NCBI GenBank assembly: GCA_902562525.1
Contig: CACETT010000005.1
Location: 1-51,731, forward strand
Length of the DNA stretch: 51,731 nt
From: an uncultured Alphaproteobacteria bacterium
GTDB taxonomy: Bacteria; Pseudomonadota; Alphaproteobacteria; UBA7887
Direction: 5' to 3'
Shown here piece by piece: positions 24,670 through 47,388 of the stretch. The position numbers and the translations under genes were made by a program. The notes below the pieces were generated by a model. It had not been told where the DNA came from. It ran no database searches and worked only from the letters and a program-made list of their open reading frames with translations. Position 1 is the first letter of the stretch; each line of letters begins with the position of its first letter.

Positions 24670-24680
24670 TGGAAAAACAA

Positions 24681-26809: not shown

Positions 26810-26884
26810 GGCATTTATTCATAAACTCATATAACTGTCTTTACAAAGGATTCCATGAACGGCCTCAGAAAAAGACCTTAAATT

Positions 26885-26913
26885 TTGACCTTGGCTTTTT
26901 TGACGGGTACTCT
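26885..26913 (+). promoter_or_regulatory. Candidate sigma-70 promoter of the KAS III gene
   Basis: TTGACC (26885-26890) matches the -35 box at 5 of 6 positions. After a 17-base spacer comes TACTCT (26908-26913), which keeps T, A and the last T of the -10 consensus. It lies 53 bp upstream of the KAS III ATG. This is a weak prediction, but the only reasonable one in the divergent gap with cysQ. Confidence 0.3.
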
Positions 26914-26965
26914 GGGGGGAGGGTTACCTCTCCTATTCAATCACTGGGCAAGCTAGGAACAACAT

Positions 26966-27916: not shown

Positions 27917-28038
27917 TTGTGACTCTTTGATTTAGAAAAGCGCGTTGGCCCGTATCGGGAATGTGACCATATCATCTAAAGGACGGTTTTTACCTAAAGA
28001 TTCCGAATGCTAATATTTGGCATTCAGAAACTGTATGG

Positions 28039-29289: not shown

Positions 29290-29330
29290 TCTCCTCCCTT
29301 TCTTCGAATACCAGTAGCCGTTCTTATAGT

Positions 29331-31289
29331 TTATGCGGCCTCGAGCCATGCTTGGAACATTAATACAGGCCAGAGTTGGTATTGGTGATTGTGTGCTCCC
29401 GAGAGGTGTTCTTTCCATACGGTTCGAACGGTTTTAGGATCAAAATAGCTGGTGTGTTGGAGATTGTTAATACTCAAAAGCTCTTCGGCCCATTCGCGTA
29501 AATCATTACGCAGCCAATTTGCCAGAGGGACGCCAAACCCCATTTTTGGCCTCTCAAAGAGGGGGCGGGGAATATAAGAGCTCAGAACTTCCCGTAATAT
29601 CCACTTTCCGCAACCGTTCTGGACTTTCAAATTTAACGGGAGTCGCCACGCAAACTCAAAAAGTTTGTGATCCAATAATGGCACGCGCGCCTCTAACCCA
29701 ACAGCCATGCTGGCCCGATCTAGTTTTACAAGTATGTCATTGGGAAGATAGAAAATGGTATCCAGGAGCATAATTTGTTGAACAAGACTATTAATCTGGG
29801 GCCATTCATAATGTTTGTGTCTCGGATGTGGCGTTTTCCCGTCGCCTATAACAGCAGAAGAGGGATCTTCCCATTGGGAAACAAGGTGCCAATACATCTC
29901 TCTATAGTCTGGCGCATTAATCATATTTCCTAGCTTGTAAAGCTTGTCACCAAATTGGGCAATCGGTCGCTGTGTCCTCGAATATTTTGTGACCGTAGAG
30001 TATATCTTGTCCCATCGCTCGGGAGATAGGCTGTGAAACCTTCTAGCTAACCAGGAGCGCATCCAGAGAGGGTAACTGTTGACTAGTTTGCCGAGGCGTT
30101 GAGACCATATGTAACGGTTGTAACCTCCAAAAAGTTCATCTCCTCCGTCACCAGAAAGACTGACGGTGACATGCTGTCGTGCAAGCTTTGACACTAAGTG
30201 CGTGGGGAGTTGAGAGGAGTCAGCAAAGGGTTCGTCATAGACCTTGGGCATGTCCGGAATTATTGATTGGGCATCCCTTGATGTTAAGTATAATTCTGTA
30301 TGATCGGTGCCAATTGCTCGGGCAATCTTTTTTGCATCTAGTGCCTCATTGTATCCTTGGTCCACGAAACCAATCGAAAAGGTTTTAATGGGTGTCCTGG
30401 AGTTTTGTTGCATTACAGCCGTGACCAACGAAGAATCTATTCCCCCAGAAAGGAAGGCTCCAATGGGCACATCAGCAACCATGCATCGGGACACAGCATC
30501 GTTGAGTTCAACTTTCAGGTGTTTGACTGCCTGATCGGCTTCGAGTTTTAGAGGTGAAGAAAGGCTTTTGGTAGCGGCTGCTAATGGGGACCAGAAAGCC
30601 TCAGGTTCCCGCAGTCTCCGATACTTAAGATCGTGGGGGCTGATAGTTAAAACAGTTCCTGGCATCAGTTTCCAACAGTCGTGGTAAATGGTACGGGGAG
30701 CGGGAATATTACTATGCTGCAGTAGTAGTTGCACAGAGCCCCTATCGATAGTCTTCTCGAATCCTGGGAAATTCACTAAAGCCGATAACTCCGAGCCAAA
30801 GACAAGATTCTTATTGGCCCAGCCATAGTAGAGAGGCTTCTGGCCAAATCGATCTCTAACAAGGTGTAATCGTTGCTCCTGTCTGTCCCATAAAGCGAAC
30901 GCAAACATTCCATTAATTTTGCTGAGTGTTTCAAGTAGGCCCCACTTGCTTATCGCGGCGATTAAGACTTCTGTATCGGACCGGCCTTTATATTGTATCC
31001 CAACAGCTGCGAGATCTTTTCGTAGCTCTGCAAAATTGTAGATCTCACCGTTATAGGTCAAGATAAGTCTCTCATCTTGACTAATCATAGGCTGGTGCCC
31101 CTGGGCAGAGGGGTCTAAAATGGAGAGTCGACGATGGCCTAGGGCGATTCCAGACTGGCTATCGGTCCAGGTGCCGTGATCGTCGGGTCCACGATGCTGG
31201 AGCTGTTCCGCAGACTTGTGGATCCAAGAAGCAAGAGTGACCTGATCCATAGGCCGTTGCCATGTCATACAGCCAGTTAAACCGCACAT
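29331..31289 (-). CDS. AsnB-type glutamine amidotransferase
   Basis: This 652-residue protein has the N-terminal Ntn-glutaminase, starting directly with the nucleophile (MCGLTGC) and carrying QHRGPDDHG, LGHRRLSILDPS and LTYNGEIYNF. The C-terminal PP-loop synthetase has GAFLSGGIDSSLVTAVM at about residue 270 and SLSGDGGDELFGGYNRY. It uses glutamine ammonia and ATP to amidate a carboxylate. Free-standing AsnB is possible, but within O-antigen loci homologues such as WbpS amidate uronic-acid residues, and I favour that role from context. It is slightly longer than AsnB of E. coli. Confidence 0.9.
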   Translation of the reverse strand: MCGLTGCMTWQRPMDQVTLASWIHKSAEQLQHRGPDDHGTWTDSQSGIALGHRRLSILDPSAQGHQPMISQDERLILTYNGEIYNFAELRKDLAAVGIQYKGRSDTEVLIAAISKWGLLETLSKINGMFAFALWDRQEQRLHLVRDRFGQKPLYYGWANKNLVFGSELSALVNFPGFEKTIDRGSVQLLLQHSNIPAPRTIYHDCWKLMPGTVLTISPHDLKYRRLREPEAFWSPLAAATKSLSSPLKLEADQAVKHLKVELNDAVSRCMVADVPIGAFLSGGIDSSLVTAVMQQNSRTPIKTFSIGFVDQGYNEALDAKKIARAIGTDHTELYLTSRDAQSIIPDMPKVYDEPFADSSQLPTHLVSKLARQHVTVSLSGDGGDELFGGYNRYIWSQRLGKLVNSYPLWMRSWLARRFHSLSPERWDKIYSTVTKYSRTQRPIAQFGDKLYKLGNMINAPDYREMYWHLVSQWEDPSSAVIGDGKTPHPRHKHYEWPQINSLVQQIMLLDTIFYLPNDILVKLDRASMAVGLEARVPLLDHKLFEFAWRLPLNLKVQNGCGKWILREVLSSYIPRPLFERPKMGFGVPLANWLRNDLREWAEELLSINNLQHTSYFDPKTVRTVWKEHLSGAHNHQYQLWPVLMFQAWLEAA

Positions 31290-31304
31290 GCTATAAACCC
31301 CCGA

Positions 31305-32465
31305 TCATGGCACATCTTTTTTTAGGCTACTATAAAGCTGTTGGTAACTTTGAACGCAAGTTTCTAGAGAAAACTTTTTTGCAACCCTACTTTTTCCGGC
31401 GGCACCCATCGATGCTCTGCGATGAGGATCGCTGGCTAGGTGCAGCAGCGCATCAGCTAAGTTATCGCAATCTTTTGGTGATACGAGTATCCCGGTTACT
31501 CCATTTTCTAGAAGCTCTGGATTGCCGCCTACGTTGGTGGCGATCATTGGCAGGCCTGCTGCCATGCACTCCAATATAGCATTGGATGACCCCTCCTCAT
31601 GTGAATTTAGGACTCCTATATCACTGGCACAAAGTATATCCGGTATGTCATTGCGAGACCCTAGCCAGAGAATATTTTCAACCAAACCTAGCTGCTTTGT
31701 TCGGTTTTGTAGGGTTTTTAGAGGACCATCGTCACGTCCCACACACGCTAACCTCCAGTTTTTTGGCAATTTTGCCGAAATTAAGTGGAGGGCGCTTAGA
31801 AGGTCGGCATGACCCTTGTAAGGGATATAATTGGCCACTTTTGTAATAAGAAGAGCTTCTTCCGGAATTCCGAGACTAGAGCGCACTAGTCTGCGTGATT
31901 TTGTCTGCGAAAAGACGCTTGTATCAACTCCATTGTTAATGAGCCTGACGCGCTGTGCATTCCTTCCCGATTCCTTTTTGAGTTCTTCCACAACGGCATT
32001 GCTGTTCCCGATCAAGATATGGGTTTTCCCGTGCAGCCAGTGCTCTAGGCGGGTTAATAAAGGGTGTTTTGTTTGATAGCGGTTTAGGCTCCGACGGCTC
32101 ATAATGCGGACTGGTATTTTTAAAAGTAGTGCCCACAAATTGCCTATTAAGTATGCTTCTGGCAGAAAACTATGTACTGCGGCTGGGCGTAAGGAAGAGA
32201 GTATTTTTCCTAACCACAGGACCTTTAAAAGTAATTTAATGGGTGTGACTTTTTCAGTCCAGCTGGGAAGGTTAGGTGAAAAAACGGAGAGCTCATGTTG
32301 TTCAAATAGGGGAGCCAGCGTCCCTGGTTGGCTGAAAGTAGCTATAGCTATTTTAAAACCTCTTTTTTTTAGACGAGGCAGAATTTGGAGCAAGTGCTTC
32401 TCTGTTCCACCCGTATTGAGTGACCCAATGACAATCAAAACATCAGTATAATGGGTAGCCTTCAT
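31305..32465 (-). CDS. Family 4 glycosyltransferase
   Basis: This 386-residue GT-B protein has an N-terminal acceptor domain with GSLNTGGTEKHLLQILPRL near residues 14-32. The C-terminal donor domain has VANYIPYKGHADLL, LWLGSRNDIPDILCASDIG and the GT4 motif HEEGSSNAILECMAAGLPMIATNVGGNPELL (quoted as HEEGSSNAILECMAAG and LPMIATNVGGNPELL). It is a retaining transferase building the repeat unit; donor and linkage are unknown. It overlaps the next GT4 gene upstream by 4 bp and lies 15 bp before asnB, so these are cotranscribed. Confidence 0.9.
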   Translation of the reverse strand: MKATHYTDVLIVIGSLNTGGTEKHLLQILPRLKKRGFKIAIATFSQPGTLAPLFEQHELSVFSPNLPSWTEKVTPIKLLLKVLWLGKILSSLRPAAVHSFLPEAYLIGNLWALLLKIPVRIMSRRSLNRYQTKHPLLTRLEHWLHGKTHILIGNSNAVVEELKKESGRNAQRVRLINNGVDTSVFSQTKSRRLVRSSLGIPEEALLITKVANYIPYKGHADLLSALHLISAKLPKNWRLACVGRDDGPLKTLQNRTKQLGLVENILWLGSRNDIPDILCASDIGVLNSHEEGSSNAILECMAAGLPMIATNVGGNPELLENGVTGILVSPKDCDNLADALLHLASDPHRRASMGAAGKSRVAKKFSLETCVQSYQQLYSSLKKDVP

Positions 32466-33685
32466 TGCCGCTGGCTATTGCTGATCAGTGTTTGGTAGGC
32501 ATTTATGTATTGCCCAACAATTTTGTCCCAACTGAAGTCCTTCGCTCGTTGTCTCGAGGCTTCCATATAGTGGGAGCGTAAATTTGCATCAGTACGTATT
32601 TTATACATTGCTTCAGCAAGAGCAGAGACATCCCCGACGGAGACCATTTTTCCATAGGAACCGTTTTCTATGACATCTATGCAACCCGGTCCATCAGTAG
32701 TAATGATCGGAAGCCCAGCAGCCATAGCTTCTATTAGTGCGATTCCAAAACTTTCTATGTGAGAAGGAAAAATAAAAGCATCCGCCGTTTTATAGAGATC
32801 TACGAGGTCTTGAGAGGGCCAGTCCGCATCAATCACATTTTTAGAGTCAGCTCCGATTTCTCCTAAGCAGAATATTGTGTCATTTAGTCCTTCTTTGGCA
32901 ATAAGGGCAGACAGCGGCTCAGTGTTTGCCCCCGCAATGACCACGGTGAATGGCACGGACGTAGTTTTCTTGAGTAGGGAAGATGCGCGGATCAAATCTG
33001 AAAAGCCTTTCTTCGGGTGGTTTCTGCCGACCGTTAGGAAAAGAAAAGCTTCCTGCGGCAAATTATACTTTTCACGAAGCGCCTTTGGACAACTATTTTT
33101 TTTAAATCTTCCTAAACTCACTCCATTTGTTATTCGCAGTATTTTGGACTGTGGGATGCCTATGTTTTCGTATTCTTGTTGAATAGATTTTGTTATAGCT
33201 ACCATCCCGTCAGCTTGTGGCAACCATTGCTTTACTATCTTGTCTACCTTGGGATTTATCCTCATACCGTAGTTTATTTTCCGGTTGACCTGGATGTCTT
33301 CCCCTGCGCACCTGATAATGTGTGGAACGTTGTTGAGTCCAAACCGAGCAAGCGCGGTACCAACAGGGTAGCCAACTGTGCCATGCCATATATCAAAGTT
33401 GTACTTCCATTGTAGTACTTTGAAGTAATTGGAAAGAAAAACCGTAGCTGCCTGGGGTGAAATACTGGAAAGGGTTAAGCTCTTAGGGGGTAGACTTAGC
33501 AATTTATAGGGCAGGGTGAAACGATGGCGGCGGAGATCATAAACATGGCTGGCTGGAGCAATCACCATAGGAGTATGACCCTGCTGGGAGAGTCGCTTGG
33601 CTATGTTATGCAGTCCTATTTCAACGCCCCCGATAGCGGGCAAGAAGGTTGAGGTAGGTAGGGCAATTGTTAGTTGATGCGGCAT
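32462..33685 (-). CDS. Family 4 glycosyltransferase
   Basis: About 407 residues, GT-B fold. The N-terminal domain has FLPAIGGVEIGLHNIAKRL; the donor domain has FLFLTVGRNHPKKGFSDLI, then VDLYKTADAFIFPSHIES and FGIALIEAMAAGLPIITTDG. It is probably a retaining sugar transferase of the glycan repeat. The frame opens at an ATG at 33715 that would overlap the upstream gene by 23 bp; the ATG at 33685 starts MPHQLTIALPTS and is preferred. It overlaps the downstream GT4 by 4 bp. The specific sugar cannot be assigned. Confidence 0.88.
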   Translation of the reverse strand: MPHQLTIALPTSTFLPAIGGVEIGLHNIAKRLSQQGHTPMVIAPASHVYDLRRHRFTLPYKLLSLPPKSLTLSSISPQAATVFLSNYFKVLQWKYNFDIWHGTVGYPVGTALARFGLNNVPHIIRCAGEDIQVNRKINYGMRINPKVDKIVKQWLPQADGMVAITKSIQQEYENIGIPQSKILRITNGVSLGRFKKNSCPKALREKYNLPQEAFLFLTVGRNHPKKGFSDLIRASSLLKKTTSVPFTVVIAGANTEPLSALIAKEGLNDTIFCLGEIGADSKNVIDADWPSQDLVDLYKTADAFIFPSHIESFGIALIEAMAAGLPIITTDGPGCIDVIENGSYGKMVSVGDVSALAEAMYKIRTDANLRSHYMEASRQRAKDFSWDKIVGQYINAYQTLISNSQRQ

Positions 33686-33692
33686 CACGTGG

Positions 33693-34787
33693 TCAATCCG
33701 AGGGAATGGTATCATTTATAATGGATAAGACCCGGCTGCAGAATTCTGTCTTAGATTGATCACGGCTCAGGGCTTTTCTATACTCATTCTGAGCTGCTGT
33801 AGCCAGTTCCACCAGCTTACCTGGACATTCAATTGCTTCCGAACATTTTTCTTCAAAATCGCTCAAATCCCACGCATGACTAATCATTGTTTCGTCTTTT
33901 CGGAATAAGTTGGGCCAAGTAACCATGTGAGACATGTCAGGTTTGAGTAGTGTGGCGCCACATAGAGTTGCCTCAAAGTCTTTAAGTGTAATTTCACCAA
34001 AACCAAACGGAGATACAACGAGTCGTGTATTTCTCATTTCCACAAAGTATGCGTGTCTAGAAAGTTTTTCTGTATCCATTTCACTTTCTAAAATATCGTG
34101 AATCTGCTTTCGTTGATACGCAACGGAATCACGTTCGTAACTCAAGCCCATCCTACATGATTTAGGAATGCTTCTCTCTTTCTTTGGCGAGGTGAAGTGT
34201 TGAGGTATTTGGAATAAGAAATTCAACGGAAAGAATTGTCTTAATGCCATTATTTGTGGTCCAAACAGACGATAGTCGGCTATTCCGGAATTCCATGAGA
34301 GCCGCAACTTTCGCAGTGATTCTTGTTCAGTCACGATGCGAGGTTTTGCCGGACAGAGGTCCTGGATGGAGCGCGTGCGAAAATAATAATCGGTCCAAAT
34401 TCGATTTCCGTATTGAGGCTTCATGTAGAGAGTGAGGTCCTTATAGAGTTGTGATTTGCAATAATAGCGAACAAAGGGAAGGACCTGTGGCTGGAGCCAT
34501 CCGGTACTGTCAGAGATATCAAACCAAACTATTGGTACTTTAGCGGCAAGGTTGGATATCTCCGCTAGGACCCTCTCATCGCCGTCCCTTGCCCAGCGGT
34601 GGCTGTAGAAACGACTTTCAACGAATAAAACATCGCAATCAGACAATCGCGGTTTGTCGGCCCCTTTGAAGAAGCGAATCTTAACTCCGGCATCGCGAAG
34701 CTCGCGCTGAAATACGATGAACGGAAACAAAAATGCTATACCGTTGGGTGAAGCAAACCCCGTAGTTAAAATATTTATGTGGTACAT
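33693..34787 (-). CDS. Probable CgeB-like glycosyltransferase
   Basis: About 364 residues. I recognise only a C-terminal GT-B-like donor segment, RLVVSPFGFGEITLKDFEAT then CGATLLKPDM, which resembles the Glyco_trans_1_2 (CgeB-like) group. The N-terminal half, with CDVLFVESRFYS and VPIVWFDISDSTGWLQPQ, fits a Rossmann-like acceptor domain. The frame extends to 34847, but the ATG at 34787 (MYHINILTTGF) looks like the natural start; neither has a clear ribosome site. It sits between the NeuA-like gene and two GT4 genes, so a glycan transferase role is likely. Whether it uses the CMP-sugar made next door is unknown. Confidence 0.65.
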   Translation of the reverse strand: MYHINILTTGFASPNGIAFLFPFIVFQRELRDAGVKIRFFKGADKPRLSDCDVLFVESRFYSHRWARDGDERVLAEISNLAAKVPIVWFDISDSTGWLQPQVLPFVRYYCKSQLYKDLTLYMKPQYGNRIWTDYYFRTRSIQDLCPAKPRIVTEQESLRKLRLSWNSGIADYRLFGPQIMALRQFFPLNFLFQIPQHFTSPKKERSIPKSCRMGLSYERDSVAYQRKQIHDILESEMDTEKLSRHAYFVEMRNTRLVVSPFGFGEITLKDFEATLCGATLLKPDMSHMVTWPNLFRKDETMISHAWDLSDFEEKCSEAIECPGKLVELATAAQNEYRKALSRDQSKTEFCSRVLSIINDTIPSD

Positions 34788-34920
34788 TATTACCGTCTGA
34801 ATACTGTTCAGTTTGTTAACCAAAGATCTTCTAAGAACGGTCCACATTATTCAGAAATATGCAGCTTTTCCGTAAGGCCACTGCTTTGGCACGTTTAAAA
34901 CAAACCGATGGAGTGGGTTC

Positions 34921-35628
34921 TTAGACTTGGTTTAAAATATAGTTTTCCATTAACACTTCACAAAAACGGATGTCCTCAGGCTCATCAATTTGAAAGCTTT
35001 TCCAGAAGTCCATGAGCCACACGCCCATTTTTCCGCCTAGCCGATTTTTATGGGCTCGAATTATACTAGGTCGAAAAATCCAAAATGATCCATTTTCTAA
35101 GTACTGGTCCGGCTTTTCCTGACGACGGCCCCGGTTACGGTAATCGTACGTAAAGCTCTCCAGTTCCCCCCTGTTTGTGCTGCGCCAGAGGTTGAAATCA
35201 GGAACTAAAGTAGCTGAGAAAAGAGAGTCCAGCCCATCGTCAGAGAATTTAGTGAGTGCTCCTTCGAAGTCTGTGCTTGTTCGGATAGGCGAAGTGCACT
35301 GGGGGGCGACTAGGTTGGTTACAGGCACCCTTTGAGAATCAAAGAAATCGAGCGCGTGCATCCATCCAGCCTCTGAAGAGGCGTTATCATTGGCTAACTT
35401 ACTAGGCCGTTTTATTTCACCAATTCCGTATTTTGCTCCAAGATTAAGAATAGCTCGGTCATCTGAGCTTATCCATACCGAGTCTATAGTCTTCGTTGCA
35501 AGTAGTTGTTCAATAGTCCAGGAAATCAAAGGTTTGCCGCAAAATGGGGAAAGGTTTTTTTGGGGAATTCCTTTGGATCCCCCGCGTGCCAGAATTACAG
35601 CTACGTTGGTCACGGCTTTCTGGTCCAC
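34921..35628 (-). CDS. Acylneuraminate cytidylyltransferase-like (NeuA/PseF family)
   Basis: This 235-residue protein has the CMP-sugar synthetase signature VAVILARGGSKGIPQKNL at about residues 9-26, then GKPLISWTIEQL, SVWISSDD and the substrate region SSEAGWMHALDFF. It activates a nonulosonic acid (sialic, legionaminic or pseudaminic type) with CTP. It pairs functionally with the NeuB-type and PseC-type genes at 39.7 and 42.4 kb. The start is a GTG with no obvious ribosome site. No obvious sialyltransferase is adjacent; the neighbouring unassigned transferases are candidates. Confidence 0.87.
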   Translation of the reverse strand: MDQKAVTNVAVILARGGSKGIPQKNLSPFCGKPLISWTIEQLLATKTIDSVWISSDDRAILNLGAKYGIGEIKRPSKLANDNASSEAGWMHALDFFDSQRVPVTNLVAPQCTSPIRTSTDFEGALTKFSDDGLDSLFSATLVPDFNLWRSTNRGELESFTYDYRNRGRRQEKPDQYLENGSFWIFRPSIIRAHKNRLGGKMGVWLMDFWKSFQIDEPEDIRFCEVLMENYILNQV

Positions 35629-35742: not shown

Positions 35743-36525
35743 TTACACTGTGCAATAGAAGGTCATAAAGTTACCGTAAAAGGGTGGGGAAATGCCCTGG
35801 GGGCTGAGTAAATTGAGAAGGGTTTGCCGAGTAAAGTAGGAGGTATCAAAGAAAGGATATTCTACTTTTTGGATTTTGAAACCAATGTCTCTTAGAAGTC
35901 GATGCATGGAGTCATTGGAAAATAAGCTGATGTGTGTTGGATCGTGCAGGAGTCGGTAATTCGTCCCATAACGGCGGGCGGCCCCTGAGTCAAAATCGGG
36001 GGTTCCAAGAATCATGTGCCCTTTTGGAAGTATCATGCTTCGGATAGCTTTGAGGGCATCGACCGGGTTTTGTAAGTGTTCTACGACGTGGTACATAACT
36101 ATCAGGTCGAAGGGCTTACTTTGTATATCCGCGTCTTCCAAGTTTGCTATTTCAATGTTGGCATGAGTAGCCGTTATAGAGCCGGCTGTTCGCGACGGCT
36201 CTACTCCATATTTATCCCAAGCAGGATCAATTGCGGACAGTAACCATCCGGGCCCACACCCAATGTCTAGCACTTTGCCGGGCGTCAATCTTCCAATAAA
36301 TTTTAGCTCTTCCCTGATATTGGAGACGTATGTCTGAGCTTCTTTAAGCCGGTTGCGGGATTGACCATCAGGGTCAACCTTTGGGTCCCAATAGGTATCA
36401 GGCTCCTGATGAGTTCTAGGCGGAAGAGCCACGAAATAGTCCATGGTCTTGTAGAGGTTTGCCATGGCTATGGGGAGATTAAAGGGTGTGCCATCAATGG
36501 TTTTTAAGGTGTTATGCGGATCCAT
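35743..36525 (-). CDS. SAM-dependent class I methyltransferase
   Basis: This 260-residue protein has the Rossmann-fold motif I VLDIGCGPGWLLSAIDP at about residues 86-102, the post-I acidic residue in YGVEPSR, and motif II FDLIVMYHVVEHLQNPVDAL. These are standard for small-molecule and sugar O- or N-methyltransferases in polysaccharide loci. The substrate is unknown; methylation of a repeat-unit sugar or capping of the chain end are the two usual roles. A 497-bp region without a clear gene lies upstream, so it may have its own promoter there. Confidence 0.87.
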   Translation of the reverse strand: MDPHNTLKTIDGTPFNLPIAMANLYKTMDYFVALPPRTHQEPDTYWDPKVDPDGQSRNRLKEAQTYVSNIREELKFIGRLTPGKVLDIGCGPGWLLSAIDPAWDKYGVEPSRTAGSITATHANIEIANLEDADIQSKPFDLIVMYHVVEHLQNPVDALKAIRSMILPKGHMILGTPDFDSGAARRYGTNYRLLHDPTHISLFSNDSMHRLLRDIGFKIQKVEYPFFDTSYFTRQTLLNLLSPQGISPPFYGNFMTFYCTV

Positions 36526-37022: not shown

Positions 37023-38630
37023 TCATGCCGCAAAAAATTTCCTGTTAAAGTAGCTGACTGAAGATGATTTGATTTCCATAGAGCTGGCAATAGCGTTGCC
37101 TAGAGTGTCTTTCTCTACACGGAAGCGCCCTTCCTCATTTACTCCAGCTGGTATTATGGGGCATCGGGCAGATAGATCTTCAAACACTGAATTATCAAAA
37201 GGCCTTATACCTAAATCTGCCAACACCATTGGCCGTCCACTCGCGAGAGCGTCAACAAACGCTGTTCCGGCAAAGTCAAAGATAAAACAATCGGCGGTTG
37301 AAGTAGTTGGGTCAAATAAGCCGTTAAGCACCTTATCCGAATAGCGGGCTAGGAACCGTTCGTTTGATATGATGCCGCCAGGATGGGGTTTCAAGATAAC
37401 TTGATATCCAAGCTCCTTCAGCTTTTGAAGCAAATCTATTTGGTAGTCTAGGTAGAGAGGGTCCGGAGGTTTTATGCTAGTAAAATTACTGAATGTCTCC
37501 CCAAGGTAAGCGCCCCCCACATATAAAACTTTTCCCGTAGTTGGATATAGGTTGGCCTTTGTGGAGGGCTTATGGAGATTTTGATGATGTGAGCTGCCGA
37601 TAGTTTTAAAACGAATCTGGTTTTCCGTGCTCATAGTTGGAACAAGTTTATGTTTGATGCGTCGCTCAAGTGCATCACGTTCAGCTTTTCCATGTGTATA
37701 ATAGGTGTCACAGTCAGGGAATTCTGCAAGGCCCCATTCAGGATCTAAAAAAAAGACGCGTTCCCCGCCATGTGCACACCGTATTGTTGTTGCCCCCTCT
37801 CGTCGATATAGCCAGCTTGCTAGTCTTCCAAGGTGTTTGGGGGTTCCGCTGAGCAAAGTGGCTGCAGCAGGCCGGGTTTTGATATGCTTTTCGAGAATAT
37901 AAAAGTCTGTGTGTGCTTTGGATAGGTGGAAGGCAACCAGGCGATATGCGAGTTTTTGAAATTTATCCTGTATACTTTGGTCAGCAAGGTGAGCTTCGGT
38001 GGCTTGGGAAATGGAGCGACAAAGCTCTATGGCGAAATCTTCCAGGAGTGTCGGAAGTTTTCCGGGCTCACGCCAGTCTATATTGGCCATAGGCCAATCT
38101 ACAAATGGGGAAGTAGTTGAAGATAAAAATCCATTGACCAGGTTGTTTCTGTTATGGATATCAATGCGATTGAAGCCCGAGTTGTAGGAATGAAGGTGAG
38201 AAAAGAATCTTCGTGTTTGATTGGCTGCGCGTCTTATCAATCTTTGGTCAACTGGGTGGTGCCATACCCGGGGTATTGGGAATTTATATGGGTCTGTGCC
38301 AGCGTTAAGGTAATGAAGTATTGGACTTCCAACATCATCGCAAATTAAGGAAATTCCAGCGCTTTTTGCTCTTGCCACATTTATTGCTGCACGCAGCAAT
38401 ACAGACAAATCGCAAATAATATCGTATGCTTTAGACCTGAGAATTGCGCAAAGGGTTTCATCATCCCGAGTGTTTCTGAGTTGAGTAATAACTTGTTCTG
38501 AAATACTACTGCTAATGTTGGCGTACGCTGAATAGGGGACGGGCCAGGAGATGTCCTTTAGGCTTTCGTGGGGTGCAGCGATAAGGTCGAGTGAAAACAA
38601 ATCCATAAAAACGGTTTGTGGTCTTCCCAT
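37023..38630 (-). CDS. Unassigned GT-B-like polysaccharide protein
   Basis: This 535-residue protein matches no family I can name with confidence. Its C-terminal half resembles GT-B capsule or teichoic-type transferases: ATTIRCAHGGERVFFLDPEW, then CDTYYTHGKAERDALERR, GYQVILKPHPGG, and DCFIFDFAGTAFVDALASGR followed by PMVLADLG. The His in HGGE and the KPHPG motif recall polysialyltransferase and CDP-glycerol transferase folds. The N-terminal half is helical and unassigned. It lies 11 bp after the sulfotransferase-like gene. Because the cluster has NeuA and NeuB but no known sialyltransferase, this is a candidate for the enzyme that adds the nonulosonic acid; that is inference. Confidence 0.6.
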   Translation of the reverse strand: MGRPQTVFMDLFSLDLIAAPHESLKDISWPVPYSAYANISSSISEQVITQLRNTRDDETLCAILRSKAYDIICDLSVLLRAAINVARAKSAGISLICDDVGSPILHYLNAGTDPYKFPIPRVWHHPVDQRLIRRAANQTRRFFSHLHSYNSGFNRIDIHNRNNLVNGFLSSTTSPFVDWPMANIDWREPGKLPTLLEDFAIELCRSISQATEAHLADQSIQDKFQKLAYRLVAFHLSKAHTDFYILEKHIKTRPAAATLLSGTPKHLGRLASWLYRREGATTIRCAHGGERVFFLDPEWGLAEFPDCDTYYTHGKAERDALERRIKHKLVPTMSTENQIRFKTIGSSHHQNLHKPSTKANLYPTTGKVLYVGGAYLGETFSNFTSIKPPDPLYLDYQIDLLQKLKELGYQVILKPHPGGIISNERFLARYSDKVLNGLFDPTTSTADCFIFDFAGTAFVDALASGRPMVLADLGIRPFDNSVFEDLSARCPIIPAGVNEEGRFRVEKDTLGNAIASSMEIKSSSVSYFNRKFFAA

Positions 38631-38641
38631 AAGTTAATCGC

Positions 38642-39658
38642 CTACCTGTTAAAACGCAGCTGTACACCAGCCTGGGCATCAATCATTAGTTGCTTCAGCG
38701 CATTCCAATGTCTTCGAGCAGTTTTACCCGGATATAAATAAGCATCCAATATTTGCCGTGTAAGGTTTGGGGCGCGAGCGCTAAAGGTCAATAAGAAACG
38801 GATGGATGGGTCGGATACAATCCCTTTTGCTAGAGCACCTATTTCGCTGAGTTCGTCACTTGTGAGGAGTTTTTCCCAGTCATTTTTGGGAGTGAGAAAC
38901 CGGGAGTGCCTGTCAAAGCGGAAATGTGGAGCGAAGCTGAAGAACTTTTCAATCTCAGCAGCCCCAACCGGGAAAAATTGAGTGAGCCTGGATAACTCTT
39001 GCTTATCGCCGGCGCACAACATGTTGAATGAAAAACGAGATACCGAATTGGGGTATTTTTGAATTAAAGAATCTGAAACGACATTTGACATGTACCAAGA
39101 GGCTAACATTAAGCGGAAACGCTTTCGTCGGTTAGGGGGCGCCTCTGGCCAGCTTCGCCAGAACATTGCGGCTGCTATAGCTTCGTAAGGGTCACGATGC
39201 ATTATGGCTAGACGAAGATTAGGTATAAATTTTTTATATGTCTCAAAGAAAAACTCTGGATGTAAATCGAATACAGCCCAAGATCTGCATTGTTGACTTT
39301 CGCAAAAATGGTCCATTACCCAGCCCAGCAGACTAATTTGATGGGTTATCGACGAGGGTATATCTGCTGATATTTTAGCCACCTGGTCCCCCATGTAGTC
39401 TATTGGCGACTCCGTGTGGACTCTATCACTTGTAGTATATCGTGGTCGGTTAAGATATTCGCTGAGTATCCTTTTGCGCTGTGTTTTGAAGAAAGGAAAT
39501 CTACGTCTATTGTACACGTGAAAAACGCCTTCCAACGGGAATCCCGCAATCGGTCCGGCCGAATTTTGTAGTGCCAGTGCCAGTGCTGTTTTTCCTGAAC
39601 GGGCTGCTCCACCGATCAGAGTGGGGTGGGAAATACGGTTTGTATCTGAGGTTTTCAT
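38642..39658 (-). CDS. Sulfotransferase-like P-loop protein
   Basis: This 338-residue protein begins with GGAARSGKTALALAL (residues 16-30). The position matches the 5'-phosphosulfate-binding loop of sulfotransferases, but GKT makes it a full Walker A motif instead of the usual RSGTT. A later segment, LRLAIMHRDPYEAIAAAMFW, resembles the 3'-phosphate loop (R-x-P followed by a small-residue helix). It may sulfate the glycan with PAPS, or be a nucleotide-using kinase of related fold. CysQ at 26 kb, which removes the sulfotransfer by-product, gives weak support. No PAPS-making genes are in the window. Confidence 0.55.
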   Translation of the reverse strand: MKTSDTNRISHPTLIGGAARSGKTALALALQNSAGPIAGFPLEGVFHVYNRRRFPFFKTQRKRILSEYLNRPRYTTSDRVHTESPIDYMGDQVAKISADIPSSITHQISLLGWVMDHFCESQQCRSWAVFDLHPEFFFETYKKFIPNLRLAIMHRDPYEAIAAAMFWRSWPEAPPNRRKRFRLMLASWYMSNVVSDSLIQKYPNSVSRFSFNMLCAGDKQELSRLTQFFPVGAAEIEKFFSFAPHFRFDRHSRFLTPKNDWEKLLTSDELSEIGALAKGIVSDPSIRFLLTFSARAPNLTRQILDAYLYPGKTARRHWNALKQLMIDAQAGVQLRFNR

Positions 39659-39717: not shown

Positions 39718-40566
39718 TTAAGTCACGTTTTGGCGCAATTTCTCTCTCGCCTCTATCTCGGATTCCAGGATGCGTTTCTTCCCATTGCCCAGGGTTTTTG
39801 GGGTTGCTCTTACTGCAGTAACAAAACTTCTTAGAGATTTTGTTTCAATGGAGGCAGCTTGATCAGATCCATACATTGACCTGTCCAGGGTTATATGTCG
39901 TTCCAGAGAGGTAGCGCCCAATGCTACGGCTGCTATGCAAACAGTTACTAGGCTGGTTTCATGGCCAGAGTAACCTACCTCACACTTGTAACGGTCCCTT
40001 AACATTGGGATGGCAAGAAGATTTGCATCTTCAAGTGGCATTGGGTAGGTGGAGTTGCAGTGCATTAGTTCGAAAGGGCACCCATTCTTTTGAAATATAT
40101 TTACGACTTCGTCTATCTCCTCAAGTGAGGACATTCCAGTGGAAATAACAGTAGGTCTGCCATCGCCTGCTATTTCTCTAAGAAGCGGCAGATGTCCAAG
40201 CATTGGCGACGCAACTTTGTGAAAGGGAGGGTCATAAGACTTCAGAAATGTGAAACTCTCAAGATCCCAACATGAGGCGGTCCACTGAATGTCTAGGTCT
40301 CTGCAGTAAGAATGCAGTGTATTGTATTCTTCCGCATTAAACTCTAAACCCTCTTTTTGCGCGCGCTGTGTGTTGCCCCATGGACTCTCGCGTTTGCCCT
40401 GCAGGTATTGTTGCGAATATACAATGTCTATGGTCCGTTTCTGAAACTTAACAGCATCAAATCCGGCGTCGGATGCTGCGAATATCATTTTTTTTGCAAG
40501 CTCGACGTCACCATTATGGTTGATTCCTATCTCGGCGATTAAAAATGGTTTTTGGTCTAAAGTCAT
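39718..40566 (-). CDS. NeuB/PseI-type nonulosonate synthase lacking the SAF domain
   Basis: About 282 residues with the NeuB TIM-barrel motifs: FLIAEIGINHNGDVELAKKM (residues 8-27), DAVKFQKR, the HKVASP equivalent FHKVASPML, VISTGMSSLEEI, LMHCNSTYPMP and VGYSGHE. It condenses PEP with a six-carbon amino sugar to form a nine-carbon nonulosonic acid. Family members usually reach about 340 residues with a C-terminal SAF (antifreeze-like) domain that lends an arginine to the partner's active site. Here the gene ends right after the barrel (EAREKLRQNVT), and no SAF remnant follows in any frame I checked. The ATG at 40566 has AAAGGA 7 bases upstream. Confidence 0.87.
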   Translation of the reverse strand: MTLDQKPFLIAEIGINHNGDVELAKKMIFAASDAGFDAVKFQKRTIDIVYSQQYLQGKRESPWGNTQRAQKEGLEFNAEEYNTLHSYCRDLDIQWTASCWDLESFTFLKSYDPPFHKVASPMLGHLPLLREIAGDGRPTVISTGMSSLEEIDEVVNIFQKNGCPFELMHCNSTYPMPLEDANLLAIPMLRDRYKCEVGYSGHETSLVTVCIAAVALGATSLERHITLDRSMYGSDQAASIETKSLRSFVTAVRATPKTLGNGKKRILESEIEAREKLRQNVT

Positions 40567-40603
40567 CAAGGGTCCTTTCCGAAAAGTCTCTTGTTCTAGC
40601 GGG

Positions 40604-41437
40604 CTAGTTTGAGTGGTCAAGCAAAAGGCCACTCTGTAATAATTTTTGGCGTAGAGCTCGCGGAATGGCCGGATTATATGTAGGCCTGTTCAGAAAAAAC
40701 GCTCTATGATTCCTGGAATGTGTATTGTTAGCACCAAATGATAGGAAAATTGAGTACTTTGGCTCAGGGCCGGAAAGTATCCCACCTGCGTGCATCAGAC
40801 GTTGGTCAAATATCACACAGTCTCCTGGATGTGTTTTAATAGTGTGGCAGGAAGTGGAAAAAAAGTTGTGGCCAAGTCGGTCGTTTTTCTCATACCGTCT
40901 AAGGTGGGTGCGTATTCGGTTCCATAGAACGTACTCTAATCGGTTGAGTTTAGATTCTTTCTTATGACTTCCAGGCAGGACGACTAGTGAAGAATTGCTT
41001 TCTGAATATTCAGAGAGGTAAATTGCAATCCTCACAACACGGTAGGGTTCGCCCGATTCATCCCAATCTGGGCCAACGCCATAGTTGCGAAAGGCATTAT
41101 CGCGATGCCAACGGCCGCCGGGAAGGTTAACATGGAGATCAGAGTGTTGAGTGTATCTAATGTCGCCTCCGATGAGCGCCTGGACTGCCTTAAGTAATGG
41201 CCGGTTAAATATTATTGGCCAAAATTGCTTCTGTGTTGTCACTCCGTCAGCCAGCGCAAACGTGCGGCCTGCGATGGCTTTGACTGCTTCCGGGCCTTCT
41301 GGGAATCCAAACAAAGTATTTATTTTCTCTCGCCAATGTGTGGCGGCATCTTTTTTAAAAAGTTCCGGCAGAACACAGTAGCCATCTCGCTTGAACGCTG
41401 AGACGTCTGGAAATTTTTCGGTGGTTTCATGGGGCAT
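40604..41437 (-). CDS. Phytanoyl-CoA dioxygenase (PhyH) family protein
   Basis: This 277-residue 2-oxoglutarate/Fe(II)-dependent oxygenase has the HxD metal motif in GGRWHRDNAF at about residue 110, the distal histidine in DQRLMHAGGI at about residue 215, and SSLVVLPGSHKKESK between them. Such enzymes hydroxylate lipids, sugars or small molecules. Within a glycan cluster it may hydroxylate a sugar or its acyl group. It lies 37 bp upstream of the NeuB-type gene and likely shares its transcript. The substrate is not predictable from sequence. Confidence 0.85.
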   Translation of the reverse strand: MPHETTEKFPDVSAFKRDGYCVLPELFKKDAATHWREKINTLFGFPEGPEAVKAIAGRTFALADGVTTQKQFWPIIFNRPLLKAVQALIGGDIRYTQHSDLHVNLPGGRWHRDNAFRNYGVGPDWDESGEPYRVVRIAIYLSEYSESNSSLVVLPGSHKKESKLNRLEYVLWNRIRTHLRRYEKNDRLGHNFFSTSCHTIKTHPGDCVIFDQRLMHAGGILSGPEPKYSIFLSFGANNTHSRNHRAFFLNRPTYNPAIPRALRQKLLQSGLLLDHSN

Positions 41438-41576: not shown

Positions 41577-42361
41577 TCAGGATTCGAGTGTCAAGCAATA
41601 GGTGGCAACATTATCACGATTAATTTTACCACGGTCTGTTTTCGGAATGTCATCAATTATGAACCAGCGGGATGGGATTTTCTCGCGCGCTAATCTTCCT
41701 GTGCACCACTGTCGTAACTCTTTGACGCTAACATCTAGATTGGTGGCAGGCGCGAGAACTAGGGGGTGGCCGCCCAATAACGGGGTAAGACAATTTCCTA
41801 TCAAACCATGTCCAAAGTGTGTGGGTAGGACCGACAGGGTTCTCGTGAGGATCCCCTGAGATAAGTGTGTTTGGTTGAGGGATACACGCGCTAACAGCGA
41901 TCGGAAGGAGTGAACAACTCCCTTAGGGGTTCCCGTAGTTCCAGAGGTGAAGAGGATGATTGCATTATCATCAAGCTGGGAATGCCCCAAGGTGCCCATG
42001 CCAGAACCTTCGAAGGCACTACTGTCTAGGATTTTGGAGCCTAGCTTTAAATCCAACCTGTGCGATCCAGCATCTAAAATAGCAGCTGCATCAACAAATT
42101 TAATGATACGCTCGATTTCCTCTTGAGTTGTGGAAGGGTTGAGGCATACGGCGCATGCCCCCAGCCTCCAAATACCTATTAAATCAGCAAAAAATTGCCC
42201 CGTCCCTCCATGCCAAATAATGACGTTGTGTTGTTGCCTCACCCCGATTTTTTTAGTTGTTCAGCAGTCCTGCCGCCCTGAGCAATTAGATCGGCTGGGC
42301 TCCATTCCCGTCCATTGTGCCACTCAGTTATGCTTCCAAGGCTATTAGTAGGTATCAGCAT
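41577..42361 (-). pseudogene. AMP-dependent ligase pseudogene (frameshift plus internal deletion)
   Basis: The frame starting at the ATG at 42361 reads 40 codons to a TGA just after an A7/G4 run (about 42242-42251). One extra base there would join it smoothly to the next frame (VRQQHNVIIWHGGTG), which runs on to 41577. That part keeps the adenylation motif ILFTSGTTGTPKGVVHS and the terminal lysine motif IPKTDRGKINRD. However, it jumps from LVLAPATNLD straight to VSVKELRQWC, skipping the region that holds the YGxTE, TGD and hinge motifs, roughly 200 residues. An active enzyme is very unlikely. The single-base shift could be a sequencing error; the in-frame deletion could not easily be. The original acyl or amino-acid substrate is unknown. 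Confidence 0.75.
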
Positions 42362-42396: not shown

Positions 42397-43638
42397 CTAA
42401 TTTAGAAAATCCACTAGCATGTCAACTACCCGGTCTACGTCAGTCATGGTCATTGATTCAAAAAGAGGTAAGCTGAGACAAGAATTGTAGTAGGATTCGG
42501 TGCCAGGTAGGCGAGCCGTACCATAGCGATTTTTGTAATATGGTTGCCAGGGGACAGGGATATAGTGTACTTGGCTACCGATTCCATTTTCTTTCAAGAG
42601 TGCCATAAGGCCGGCTCGGGTAATTCCCGCTCTCTCGAAGTCGATAACAACCACTTGTAGATGCCACGCAGCATCACATTTATCTACGACCGTGAGGGCC
42701 CGTATAAGGGGACCTAGCCCGGTTAGGCGGGCCCTATAGTGGGCTGCAAGTGCCCGACGGTGCCTGACAATACTTGGAAGGCGTGACAGCTGACTTGCGC
42801 CTAGTGCGCAATGTAGGTCGCTAATGCGGTAATTAAGGCTGGGTTGGGAAAGTTCGTAGTACCAAGGGTTGATAGATCCATCTGAGGATTGAGCAAGGGC
42901 GTGATTTTGAAATTCCTCCGGGTTGTGAACCATGCCGTGATTACAAAAGATCCGAAGTTTTTTAGCCAGGTCGGGGTCTTCGGTGGTGACCGCCCCGCCT
43001 TCTCCGGTTGTTATAGTTTTTACTGGATGGAATGAGAAGGCAGTTAGGTCACTGTGGGTGTTGGAACCAACGTAGTAGCGAGTTTTGTCCGCTTCATAAG
43101 TAGTTCCGAGCGCATGGCAGGCGTCAGCGATAACGAGAAGACCATGAGCATCAGCTAATTCTCGAAGCTGGGCAGGGTATGAACATTGCCCAGCAAAATA
43201 AACTGGGATTATCGCTTTTACCCTGTGTGCCTCCGTACGAGTAAGGGCCTCTTCTGCATGCTTTGCCAACATGAGGCCAGTATCGGGGTCAACATCTGCA
43301 AATATTACTTCTGCACCCATTAGGCGTACAACGTTTGCGGTTGCAAGGAAGGTGTTTGCTGGGACAATTACGTTGTCCCCTGGGCCTATATTGGCCGCTA
43401 TCATGGATAGGTGAAGTGCGGCTGTTCCGCTGCTGCAGGCTATACTGTATTTTGCATGAGTGTTACTGCATAACGCCTCTTCAAATGTTTTGACTGCTGG
43501 CCCGGTTGTCAGCCAATTGCTCTTAAGAACCTCAATCACTGCATCTATGTCAGTTGTATGGATTGACTGCCGGCCGTAGGGTAATAGCGTTGTTTTTGAG
43601 CTAATCTTCTGATTATGATTTGGTTTATGAAATTTCAT
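42397..43638 (-). CDS. DegT/PseC-type sugar aminotransferase
   Basis: This 413-residue protein is a DegT/DnrJ/EryC1 aminotransferase closest by motif to PseC. It has LLPYGRQSIHTTDIDAV (about residues 18-34), LKSNWLTTGPAVKTFEEAL, ACSSGTAALHLSM, the VIADACHALGTTY loop, and the PLP lysine in FSFHPVKTITTGEGGAV. It would aminate a UDP-4-keto-6-deoxy sugar to a 4-amino-4,6-dideoxy sugar, the step after the dehydratase and before NeuB-type condensation in pseudaminic or legionaminic acid synthesis. It lies 35 bp upstream of the broken ligase. Pse versus Leg or another amino sugar cannot be decided. Confidence 0.9.
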   Translation of the reverse strand: MKFHKPNHNQKISSKTTLLPYGRQSIHTTDIDAVIEVLKSNWLTTGPAVKTFEEALCSNTHAKYSIACSSGTAALHLSMIAANIGPGDNVIVPANTFLATANVVRLMGAEVIFADVDPDTGLMLAKHAEEALTRTEAHRVKAIIPVYFAGQCSYPAQLRELADAHGLLVIADACHALGTTYEADKTRYYVGSNTHSDLTAFSFHPVKTITTGEGGAVTTEDPDLAKKLRIFCNHGMVHNPEEFQNHALAQSSDGSINPWYYELSQPSLNYRISDLHCALGASQLSRLPSIVRHRRALAAHYRARLTGLGPLIRALTVVDKCDAAWHLQVVVIDFERAGITRAGLMALLKENGIGSQVHYIPVPWQPYYKNRYGTARLPGTESYYNSCLSLPLFESMTMTDVDRVVDMLVDFLN

Positions 43639-43707: not shown

Positions 43708-45504
43708 TTATTGAGAAGTGGGTGTGCGCCTTCTGAAGATTCGAAGGAAAATTATCGCCGTTGGAATTCCCATGATGCCCCCTGCACCAAATGCTATTAA
43801 TAAATGGCGGTACCTCAGTTCCGGCACGTAAGATGCTAGGAGGAAACGAAGACGGTGGAGTGGCCCGAAATCCGAGTCTGATCTGGGTGCGGATGCCAAC
43901 AGATGTTCAGCAATAATCTCTGCGTGGACACGGGTGATCCCTAGATTAGGCATGCTGGCTTTGGGATTATCAAACGTAGGTTCTTGTAAATAGGCTGACA
44001 ACCACCTGGTTGCGCGCTCATCATCCGAAGCCTGTAGGATGCTTTCTCTAGCTTCGCGAAAATCCACAAATGGTTTGTTTTCGAGACGATCGACTTCTGC
44101 AACCCGATCCGCATACGAGCTTTCGCTTAATATAGATATCAGGCGGGTACGTAAACTATCATTCAGGGCAGGGCCGAAGCTTCCGCCGGCTCCGTCAATC
44201 ATATGGCATTGTCGACAACCATAACGATTGATTAGGGCCAGTGGTGACGCGTCTGTCCCTAAGCGATGGGGGTATGTACTATCGGGCGCGGCGCTAATCC
44301 GGAGGACCGTCACCCTACCTTCCTGGTTTGGCAAAATTGGTACAAAATAAAGTCCATCTGGACCTAGCGCAACAGACACAGGGATTTGCATTCCGCTCCC
44401 TCTGTAACTAAGAATGGGATGTGGAACCTGCCCCATTCTTTCGTTGTCCATGTTATAATCTAAAAGGAGAATGCTCCGTTTTCCATCCACGCTACGACCG
44501 ATTTCACCGGGCGATCCTGATGATGCCGTGACAAAAAAGCCGCGGTAATTTTCGGGGAGCACTTCATTCGCTTTAGAGATGTAGTCCAAGTCCACAAGGC
44601 CGACAGCTGGTGCAAAAATTTGTTTTGCCCTCGCGCCTATACCCCAATCGGTACCATCCCAGAGATAATTTTCCCCTTTAAATATTTCGGTGAAGCGGTC
44701 TATATCACCCCCATTCTCTGTTGCGAATAGGCGACCCTCAACCATTTTTAGGCCAAAAATATTCCGAAACCCGTAGGCCCAAACGAAATCAATGGCGGTA
44801 TTTATACCATCGTCCTGAAAGAACGGGTTATCTGCGGGTGGATGAAAGTCGAGATCCGTTCGGATGATGGAACCAAGTGTCGAATGAAGGTTTTGCGCTT
44901 GGGCTTTTTCACTTCCGTAACCAACAGCAGTATACACGTGCCCTTTGTGGACCTCGCATGGACCGATTTGATGGGAGGTGGCGGAGCGCTCAGTGTTAAA
45001 AATGTCGAGAAGGTCAACCCGGTCCACTCCTGATATACCAAAGGTACCGGGTGTTGTAGAATAACGAGCCATGCCGTTCCGATATATTTGGCTTTCATCG
45101 AGGTAAGCGAACGTAACAAATACATAGCCATTTTCAGGTTCTAAACAAATGCCCGTGAGGCCGACCGGGTCGAAGGAGTTTGGTCCCTGAGGAATTGGTA
45201 GCACATCACTTGCAAAGGTATGGATGGACCGATCATTGGTGACCACTTTAATTGTACCCTTCAGCTCCAGAACAAAATATAGTGGATCATTGGGTTGATT
45301 GCCTGGTTGTTCCACAAACATTATGTGGGATGGAAACTTGTAGCCCGTGGTGTCGATATTCATTGTTAAGTTTTCGGCTAACTCCCAGTCATCGCGCCAA
45401 TCAAATGGTCCCTTATCCTGGTTGTTTGAACTAACAATTTTGGACATCAGCACTGTGGTCAAGGTTATACTGGCAAAAAAACATATATTGATTACAACTC
45501 TCAT
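43708..45504 (-). CDS. Membrane-anchored PQQ-type sugar dehydrogenase with cytochrome c domain
   Basis: About 598 residues in four parts. An N-terminal hydrophobic signal or anchor (ICFFASITLTTVLMSKIV) is followed by a glucose/sorbosone-dehydrogenase-like beta-propeller of about 380 residues (VWAYGFRNIFGL, ATENGGDIDRF, then PVSVALGPDGLYFVP). A cytochrome c domain with GCRQCH at about residue 430 and SMPNLGIT comes next, and then a C-terminal membrane helix (LLIAFGAGGIMGIPTAIIFL). It probably oxidises a sugar or aldose in the periplasm with PQQ and passes electrons to its own haem. The frame reaches 45600, but the ATG at 45504 follows AAAGGA by 9 bases. No pqq synthesis genes are visible, and its place between an exporter and sugar genes is odd. 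Confidence 0.8.
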   Translation of the reverse strand: MRVVINICFFASITLTTVLMSKIVSSNNQDKGPFDWRDDWELAENLTMNIDTTGYKFPSHIMFVEQPGNQPNDPLYFVLELKGTIKVVTNDRSIHTFASDVLPIPQGPNSFDPVGLTGICLEPENGYVFVTFAYLDESQIYRNGMARYSTTPGTFGISGVDRVDLLDIFNTERSATSHQIGPCEVHKGHVYTAVGYGSEKAQAQNLHSTLGSIIRTDLDFHPPADNPFFQDDGINTAIDFVWAYGFRNIFGLKMVEGRLFATENGGDIDRFTEIFKGENYLWDGTDWGIGARAKQIFAPAVGLVDLDYISKANEVLPENYRGFFVTASSGSPGEIGRSVDGKRSILLLDYNMDNERMGQVPHPILSYRGSGMQIPVSVALGPDGLYFVPILPNQEGRVTVLRISAAPDSTYPHRLGTDASPLALINRYGCRQCHMIDGAGGSFGPALNDSLRTRLISILSESSYADRVAEVDRLENKPFVDFREARESILQASDDERATRWLSAYLQEPTFDNPKASMPNLGITRVHAEIIAEHLLASAPRSDSDFGPLHRLRFLLASYVPELRYRHLLIAFGAGGIMGIPTAIIFLRIFRRRTPTSQ

Positions 45505-45600: not shown

Positions 45601-47388
45601 CTAGATTGTAATATCTTGTTCCAAACACATTCTTCGGAAGTGGGAGTCTGTTTTATTAAATAGCTCAGTTACAGAGCCATGCTCAGCAATTTTGCCATCC
45701 TCCATTACATAAATTTGGTCGCAATTGCGAATCGTGGACAGTCTATGAGCAATTACTATTATGGTGCGCTTTCCATGAAGTTGTTCAATAGATTTCTGAA
45801 TTATACTCTCGGCAGCTGAGTCCAGAGCGCTCGTTGCTTCGTCAAAGATTAAAATTTCCGGATCTCGGTAGAGTTCTCTGGCTATGGCAATCCGCTGGCG
45901 CTGCCCTCCCGACAATCTTGTTCCCCGCTCCCCGACAAGTGTTTCGTAGCCTTCTGGGAAAAGGTCTATGAATGTGCTGCAATTCGCGGCATCTGCTGCA
46001 GCTTTAATCTTATTTTGTTCGTTGATTTTGTCGGCTCCTGTTCCCCAAAGGGATAGATTATTCGCCACGGTATCATTGAATATGAGAGGCTCTTGTGGGA
46101 CATAACCGAAAAGGCGTCGTAGTGACCTAAGGCTAAGACTTCGGTAATTTTGGCCATTAATGCTGATGTTGCCACTGGTTGGATTCAACAGCCCGGTAAG
46201 TACATGGAAAAGAGTTGTTTTCCCTGAGCCCGACGCACCCACGATGCCGTATGTCTTGTGTGGCTCTATGCGCATACTAATATCTTTTAGAATGGGGACT
46301 GAGCCATGGTGAAAGGTTACGTTCGATAGCACCAAATCTCCACTGATGTTTTTTATAGATTGAAAACCATCTTTTTCTGCTGAATTCTCAATCTGTTGTG
46401 CGAAATCAGCTACAAAATGTACGCCACCTATTAACTGGTTTAATCTCTGGATTGATACAGGTAGTTCCAGAATTTGCCTAAGCACTCTATAAAGAAGAAG
46501 GGCTACGACAGCTACAGCGGATAGGGAGCCACCTAACAGTTCAACTTTATAAAATAGATATCCAAGCAAAGCGGTAACAGCAATGGGCTCCTTAAACCCG
46601 GAAAGAGTGGCTGTCCTGATTCCTATTCGCATATGGAGGTCAACGAGTTGGTTGACATGTCGCATAATATGTCGACGAGCTTTATCGACGTTTGCAGTAG
46701 CTTTAAGGTAAGGAAATGCCTGAACGAATTCAATCATTTGACTGGAGAGTCCAGCCGCTTCATTTGAAACAGTAATGGAAAGTTTTTTTGTTCGTGAGAT
46801 GAGAGGTCGTACAAGCAAAATTGCTAGCGCACCGACAGCTATTGTCACGAGTGCCATCTCTGTATCAAAAACTACAATAGCTGGGAGGTAGATGAGAATA
46901 TAGATAGATGTGACAAATACCTGTGCGAATGTCCGAAGAGAGGCGGAAAATCTACCTGTTTCTACGGAAAGTAGGTTAGAAAGATAGCCGGTTTTCTGTT
47001 TTAGAAAGAAAGAGTAAGAGGCGTTTTCCAGACCAGTTACCAGAGAGGTTTGGACAGCTTTTCTGACCATTGTAACCGTGCGCACAGTTAGGTAACTGTG
47101 CATAAAAACTAGAGCACCCTTAGCTATGAATATGGCAGCTATGAGGAATATAAGATTAGCAAAGGATGCATCAACACCCAGTTTATTCAACCCAGTAGCG
47201 ACTATTTCAGAAATTGGATTATTCAACGATTCACCAAGTGCAACTTGGAATAATGGCAGTAGGGTCATAATACCTACTAATTCCAGGAGACCTGCTCCCA
47301 ATATAAGTAAAATTAAGAAAGGGAGGCGCCAACCAGCGTATCGGTAGAATATGGTGTAGTAGTTGAAAACTTTGTATGATTTTAACAT
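45601..47388 (-). CDS. ABC half-transporter, MsbA/PglK-like flippase or exporter
   Basis: This 595-residue fusion has six membrane segments (residues about 20-320) and one nucleotide-binding domain. The latter has Walker A GIVGASGSGKTTLFHVLTGL near 380-400, a Q-loop YVPQEPLIF, the signature LSGGQRQRIAIAREL and Walker B ILIFDEATSALD, with IVIAHRLST. It works as a homodimer, exporting or flipping a lipid-linked substrate. With a Wzy-like protein but no Wzx in the window, it may flip the undecaprenyl-linked repeat unit as PglK does in Campylobacter. Drug or lipid export remains possible. It lies directly upstream of the propeller-cytochrome gene. Confidence 0.85.
   Translation of the reverse strand: MLKSYKVFNYYTIFYRYAGWRLPFLILLILGAGLLELVGIMTLLPLFQVALGESLNNPISEIVATGLNKLGVDASFANLIFLIAAIFIAKGALVFMHSYLTVRTVTMVRKAVQTSLVTGLENASYSFFLKQKTGYLSNLLSVETGRFSASLRTFAQVFVTSIYILIYLPAIVVFDTEMALVTIAVGALAILLVRPLISRTKKLSITVSNEAAGLSSQMIEFVQAFPYLKATANVDKARRHIMRHVNQLVDLHMRIGIRTATLSGFKEPIAVTALLGYLFYKVELLGGSLSAVAVVALLLYRVLRQILELPVSIQRLNQLIGGVHFVADFAQQIENSAEKDGFQSIKNISGDLVLSNVTFHHGSVPILKDISMRIEPHKTYGIVGASGSGKTTLFHVLTGLLNPTSGNISINGQNYRSLSLRSLRRLFGYVPQEPLIFNDTVANNLSLWGTGADKINEQNKIKAAADAANCSTFIDLFPEGYETLVGERGTRLSGGQRQRIAIARELYRDPEILIFDEATSALDSAAESIIQKSIEQLHGKRTIIVIAHRLSTIRNCDQIYVMEDGKIAEHGSVTELFNKTDSHFRRMCLEQDITI

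Follow-up and report, generated by a model that had tools for sequence, protein, structure and literature searches.

The open reading frame at positions 43708-45504 of the window, as the whole 51,731-nucleotide stretch analysed is called here, encodes a 598-residue protein in which a GSDH-type propeller, a cytochrome c domain and a transmembrane (TM) helix are joined, as judged from the reading frame, Pfam, Foldseek and homologues. With a probability of about 45%, it is read as a membrane-tethered, periplasmic, quinohaemoprotein-like oxidoreductase that would serve the modification or turnover of surface glycan. In this scheme, the protein would be exported, its C-terminal helix would anchor it in the inner membrane, and the propeller and the haem domain would face the periplasm. 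The propeller would oxidise a small carbohydrate or carbonyl group of the surface glycan or of its turnover products, with a cofactor that is probably PQQ, own or scavenged, in an altered pocket. From there, electrons would pass through the fused cytochrome c into the membrane's respiratory chain. We infer redox activity, PQQ as the cofactor and the periplasmic topology; the glycan as substrate, and the exact bond oxidised, are conjecture. The genome to which the window belongs measures 1.43 Mb and is 63% complete, and the window makes up one entire contig of it; the window features given by position below lie, like this gene, on the minus strand.

The reading frame is a real gene. It begins with ATG behind a ribosome-binding-like stretch (AAAAAGGA) and is spaced 96 nt after an ABC gene and 69 nt before a PseC gene. 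The dN/dS ratio among the close homologues compared is ~0.06-0.10, and the 598-residue protein is therefore under constraint by purifying selection. The six-bladed GSDH-type propeller occupies residues ~40-405 (44290-45387) and is recognised by both Pfam and Foldseek. The Pfam GSDH profile (PF07995) matches residues 76-289 with an E value of 3.7e-20 and 72.9 bits against a gathering cut-off of 25, and it is matched in all nine homologues. The NCBIfam model for glucose/sorbosone PQQ dehydrogenases, TIGR03606, reaches 27.6 bits, far below its cut-off of 434.55. An AlphaFold model of the protein is of moderate quality (mean pLDDT 62), and its Foldseek matches include 3a9g, 8re0/1c9u and 2g8s, all PQQ sugar dehydrogenases, with values between about 1e-14 and 1e-16.

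At the C-terminus, hydropathy indicates a TM helix followed by a basic tail (43735-43806; Kyte-Doolittle 2.06 over residues 567-590). An LRYRH motif stands directly ahead of the membrane (43804-43818), and its RYRH part is invariant, Chloroflexota included. The N-terminal residues ~1-26 (45427-45504; Kyte-Doolittle 2.02) form a putative signal peptide. In relatives this region resembles a normal signal peptide that can be cleaved, with ASA↓Q-type sites, e.g. ...LASA↓QTPP... The original prediction, in which a single chain combines propeller, haem c and membrane tether, is thus borne out by Pfam, Foldseek, the GCRQCH motif and the C-terminal TM window. Its plural membrane anchors, however, are reduced: the cleavable look of the relatives' N-termini makes that end doubtful as an anchor, so only the C-terminal helix likely remains. 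Given the plain signal peptides of the relatives, a type I membrane topology is most likely, which would place propeller and haem domain alike on the periplasmic side.

The haem-c attachment motif GCRQCH is found at residues 429-434 (44203-44220), and Met518 (43951-43953) is the likely distal haem ligand. Cys430, Cys433, His434 and Met518 are invariant in nine of nine sequences, which is the combination of CXXCH and distal Met expected of a class I cytochrome c. Such conservation is best explained by a redox role. The Pfam Cytochrom_C profile matches weakly in four of the nine homologues (best E 0.0011), and a Foldseek search with the haem domain alone returned no structural match, the model being of low confidence around the haem loop. 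The segment between GCRQCH and Met518 reads as a helical insertion of ~50 residues in an ordinary class I cytochrome c.

As the original prediction had stated, the gene lies between a flippase-like ABC gene and a PseC-type gene. The former (45601-47388) belongs to the PglK/MsbA superfamily of exporters by profile matches; the latter (42397-43638) is an aminotransferase that scores 453 bits against a cut-off of 423 for its NCBIfam equivalog. Beyond it lies a broken acyl-CoA ligase fragment (41577-42242; profile and comparison), 221 residues long compared with 481 in relatives. Across 41577-42361, ~170 internal residues of this ligase are gone and its N-terminal part is in a different frame. A PseG-like gene and a 474-residue membrane protein present in relatives are absent from the window. 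The conserved cluster genes, recognised by profiles or Pfam and by comparison with relatives, are a PhyH-family dioxygenase (40604-41437), a short-form NeuB-family nonulosonic acid synthase (39718-40632), a sulfotransferase-like gene (38642-39658), a LIC12162-like transferase (37023-38630), a methyltransferase (35743-36525) and a cytidylyltransferase of CMP-sugar type (34921-35628). The NeuB homologues of the cluster have ~290 residues, and the C-terminal antifreeze-like domain is apparently missing. The remaining glycan cluster (22741-34847) includes CapD/WbpM-like, GT4 initiating transferase, Wzy_C ligase/polymerase, AsnB-like and glycosyltransferase genes.

The propeller-cytochrome family is very rare: random samples contained it in 1 of 385 alphaproteobacteria and 1 of 398 members of the phylum, each time in the window's own genome (G000). 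Searches of phage records and viral contigs gave zero homologues, and plasmids yielded distant single-domain GSDH proteins only. Full-length homologues occur in the genus-mate G001, in G060, G061, G062 and G659, and in the Chloroflexota genomes G063 and G597. The four in the middle, likewise alphaproteobacteria, belong to a second order of 24 genomes, a list that includes neither the window's genome nor its family. The homologue in G001, with about 47-49% identity, lies in a homologous glycan cluster. A 19.8-kb stretch of this cluster is found twice, on contigs C1 and C19 (L021, L022), with 99.8% identity, and the doubling is either a strain mixture or a duplication. In the G060, G061 and G062 MAGs, found by a genome scan with a best segment of 69% identity, the order is ABC, GSDH, PseC and acyl ligase; where the contigs extend further, genes for a PseG-like protein, a membrane protein, PhyH and NeuB come next. 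The Caldilineales MAG G063 has two tandem copies (35% identity) surrounded by glycosyltransferases, including a GT10 gene. The G597 copy also has glycosyltransferase genes around it; a bacterial sugar transferase gene and one for a polysaccharide tyrosine kinase are near. In G659, the copy is near an MBOAT O-acyltransferase on a contig other than that of the main glycan cluster, which is complete around its ABC gene and lacks GSDH there. This G659 copy (L045:5972-7700) has an in-frame TGA where Trp is conserved, and the remaining 548-residue reading frame is without a signal peptide.

Glycan genes are present in every homologue context examined (eight carriers, two orders and two phyla). A clade of short NeuB proteins with 69-72% identity, found in G000, G001, G060, G062, G659 and G642, marks by its sequence the same cluster type, within which the G061 contig also ends. 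Among 23 alphaproteobacteria inspected, the GSDH gene is found in six of the seven with this cluster and in none of the 16 without it (Fisher p 7e-5, genomes being counted without allowing for relatedness). In the seventh, G642, the contig breaks off within the ABC gene, just ahead of the place expected for GSDH. ABC homologues adjoin the GSDH gene or stand one gene off in five genomes. A function linked to PseC was considered and rejected: the PseC/acyl-ligase/PseG module is missing from the G001 and G659 clusters, and the tie is therefore to the glycan system and not to PseC. Consequently, the use of position as a clue holds for the glycan genes in two orders and two phyla but not for adjacency to PseC, and the window's gene order recurs in G060, G061 and G062 but not in G001 and G659.

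The window GSDH is 67-68% identical to the second order and about 47-49% to the genus-mate, whereas its ABC neighbour shows 42-43% and 50%, respectively. These differing patterns point to lateral exchange. The gene has moved, yet it remains among glycan genes. Chance insertion, the outcome against which the original prediction was to be checked in sister genomes, is rejected as the whole story by the repeated glycan contexts, although the gene is mobile. Its place among surface-glycan genes is not accidental.

The mobility of the gene and the G659 copy outside the main cluster fit an alternative that is unlikely but deserves to be taken seriously: a catabolic, energy-yielding oxidation of aldoses, in which an Asd-like enzyme would oxidise free environmental or released sugars, feed the electrons into respiration and stand in a glycan island only through island exchangeability. 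It is consistent with known Asd/sGDH chemistry and with the PQQ synthesis genes of the window's own genome and its genus-mate. Among six genomes examined, PqqE exceeds the cut-off in G000 and G001 only, with none in G060-G063, and PqqC in G001 only. PqqB does so in G001 alone among eight carriers; none was found over the cut-off in the other seven (G060-G063, G597, G659 and the window's own incomplete genome, which has PqqE). The search for pqq genes elsewhere in the genome, suggested in the original prediction, thus succeeded for the genus and found none over cut-off in the other carriers. The two carriers of eight with such genes also have PQQ alcohol dehydrogenases, which match the pqq pattern and so explain the PQQ synthesis of the genus without the GSDH gene. 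Against the catabolic alternative stand the lack of PqqB over the cut-off in six other carriers, the independent occurrences beside glycan genes in two orders and two phyla, and the Caldilineales tandem pair among glycosyltransferases. The absence of PQQ genes from MAGs is no proof.

For the active site, 10 family sequences were aligned with that of sGDH, which had been verified against 1c9u. His178 (44971-44973) corresponds to the catalytic base His144 of sGDH, and Arg247-Asn248 (44761-44766) to Arg228/Asn229; all are invariant. Equivalents of His144, Arg228, Asn229 and Gly247 are kept in 10 of 10 members, and the arrangement typical of PQQ sugar dehydrogenases, Arg/Asn with the catalytic His at the quinone oxygens, is found in each. 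The ligands of the PQQ carboxylates, Lys377 and the Arg406/Arg408 pair, are missing in all 10; one Caldilineales copy has Arg in the 406 column only. Arg270 and Arg368 are candidates for residues that may stand in for them. Beyond residue 290 identity is low and the exact register less certain. The pair is kept in 16 of 17 single-domain relatives, in the low-identity half of the alignment. The Asp163 position is Tyr/Phe in the alphaproteobacterial members. As aligned, half of the usual residues of the cofactor site are missing. The label 'PQQ-type' consequently stands for the fold and for His, Arg and Asn but does not extend to Lys377, Arg406 and Arg408.

These losses, together with the lack of PqqB in most carriers, mean that PQQ is not assured. 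They also favour a rather improbable alternative, in which a non-PQQ propeller would bind or sense glycan and, with the haem, act as a redox or gas sensor or as the electron carrier of another enzyme. HHIP, with its HHIP-heparin structures, is also among the Foldseek matches of the propeller, and some carriers have no PQQ synthesis genes over the cut-off. However, His, Arg and Asn are retained in 10 of 10, and the fungal CcSDH (AA12), a proven PQQ enzyme, is also without several bacterial PQQ residues (PMC4133262). The loss of residues is therefore not decisive. External PQQ is used by bacteria such as E. coli (PMC6881789), and PQQ use by the family appears possible.

The favoured reading, a periplasmic quinohaemoprotein-like oxidoreductase, finds its closest relatives in three known systems. 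PQQ aldose sugar dehydrogenases (Asd/YliI, 2g8s; Pyrobaculum, 3a9g) and sGDH (1c9u) have the same six-bladed fold, with the catalytic His, the Arg-Asn pair and the Gly at the calcium loop in common; in contrast to them, the family adds a fused haem c and a C-terminal TM helix and lacks Lys377, Arg406, Arg408 and Trp346. The AA12 quinohaemoprotein pyranose dehydrogenase of Coprinopsis (CcPDH/CcSDH) is likewise a fusion of a GSDH-like propeller and a cytochrome, with altered PQQ-binding residues and the His kept (PMC4133262, PMC6881789). Unlike the family, it is secreted and has an N-terminal, b-type AA8 cytochrome and a cellulose-binding domain. Its Arg621 is common to the bacterial enzymes, whereas the family has no Arg at the Arg406/Arg408 positions. 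Hedgehog-interacting protein (HHIP) has the same propeller fold and also misses several PQQ residues (PMC4133262); heparin-bound structures exist, but it is an animal signalling protein without haem.

In regard to the substrate, the chemistry of the enzyme class is restrictive. Known GSDH enzymes need a free anomeric carbon (reducing end) or an aldehyde, and an undecaprenyl- or lipid-A-linked chain has no free anomeric hydroxyl. Chain-end oxidation therefore stays conjecture, and its original form, a PQQ enzyme converting the chain-end aldose of O-antigen to an aldonic acid or lactone, is very improbable: the periplasmic quinohaemoprotein-like anatomy beside an exporter and O-antigen-type genes suits it, but this obstacle, the unconserved adjacency to PseC and the incomplete PQQ site speak against it.

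If the glycan is the substrate, the enzyme would finish a surface polysaccharide by a redox step that takes place outside the cytoplasm and is linked to respiration. We know of no such step described for O-antigen or capsule pathways, and a limited literature search found no such enzyme in glycan clusters, in agreement with the original remark on O-antigen pathways. The data hint that some bacteria oxidise their own surface sugars outside the cell. An undescribed respiratory glycan-oxidase family with a non-canonical pocket, coupling periplasmic polysaccharide oxidation to electron transport in Alphaproteobacteria and Chloroflexota, is a tentative and still doubtful proposal. How much loss from the PQQ site a GSDH propeller tolerates before redox activity ends is a question for which the family also offers a natural test.

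Within the propeller, Cys120 and Cys183 are both invariant, the latter five residues past the catalytic His, and a disulfide between the two is possible.
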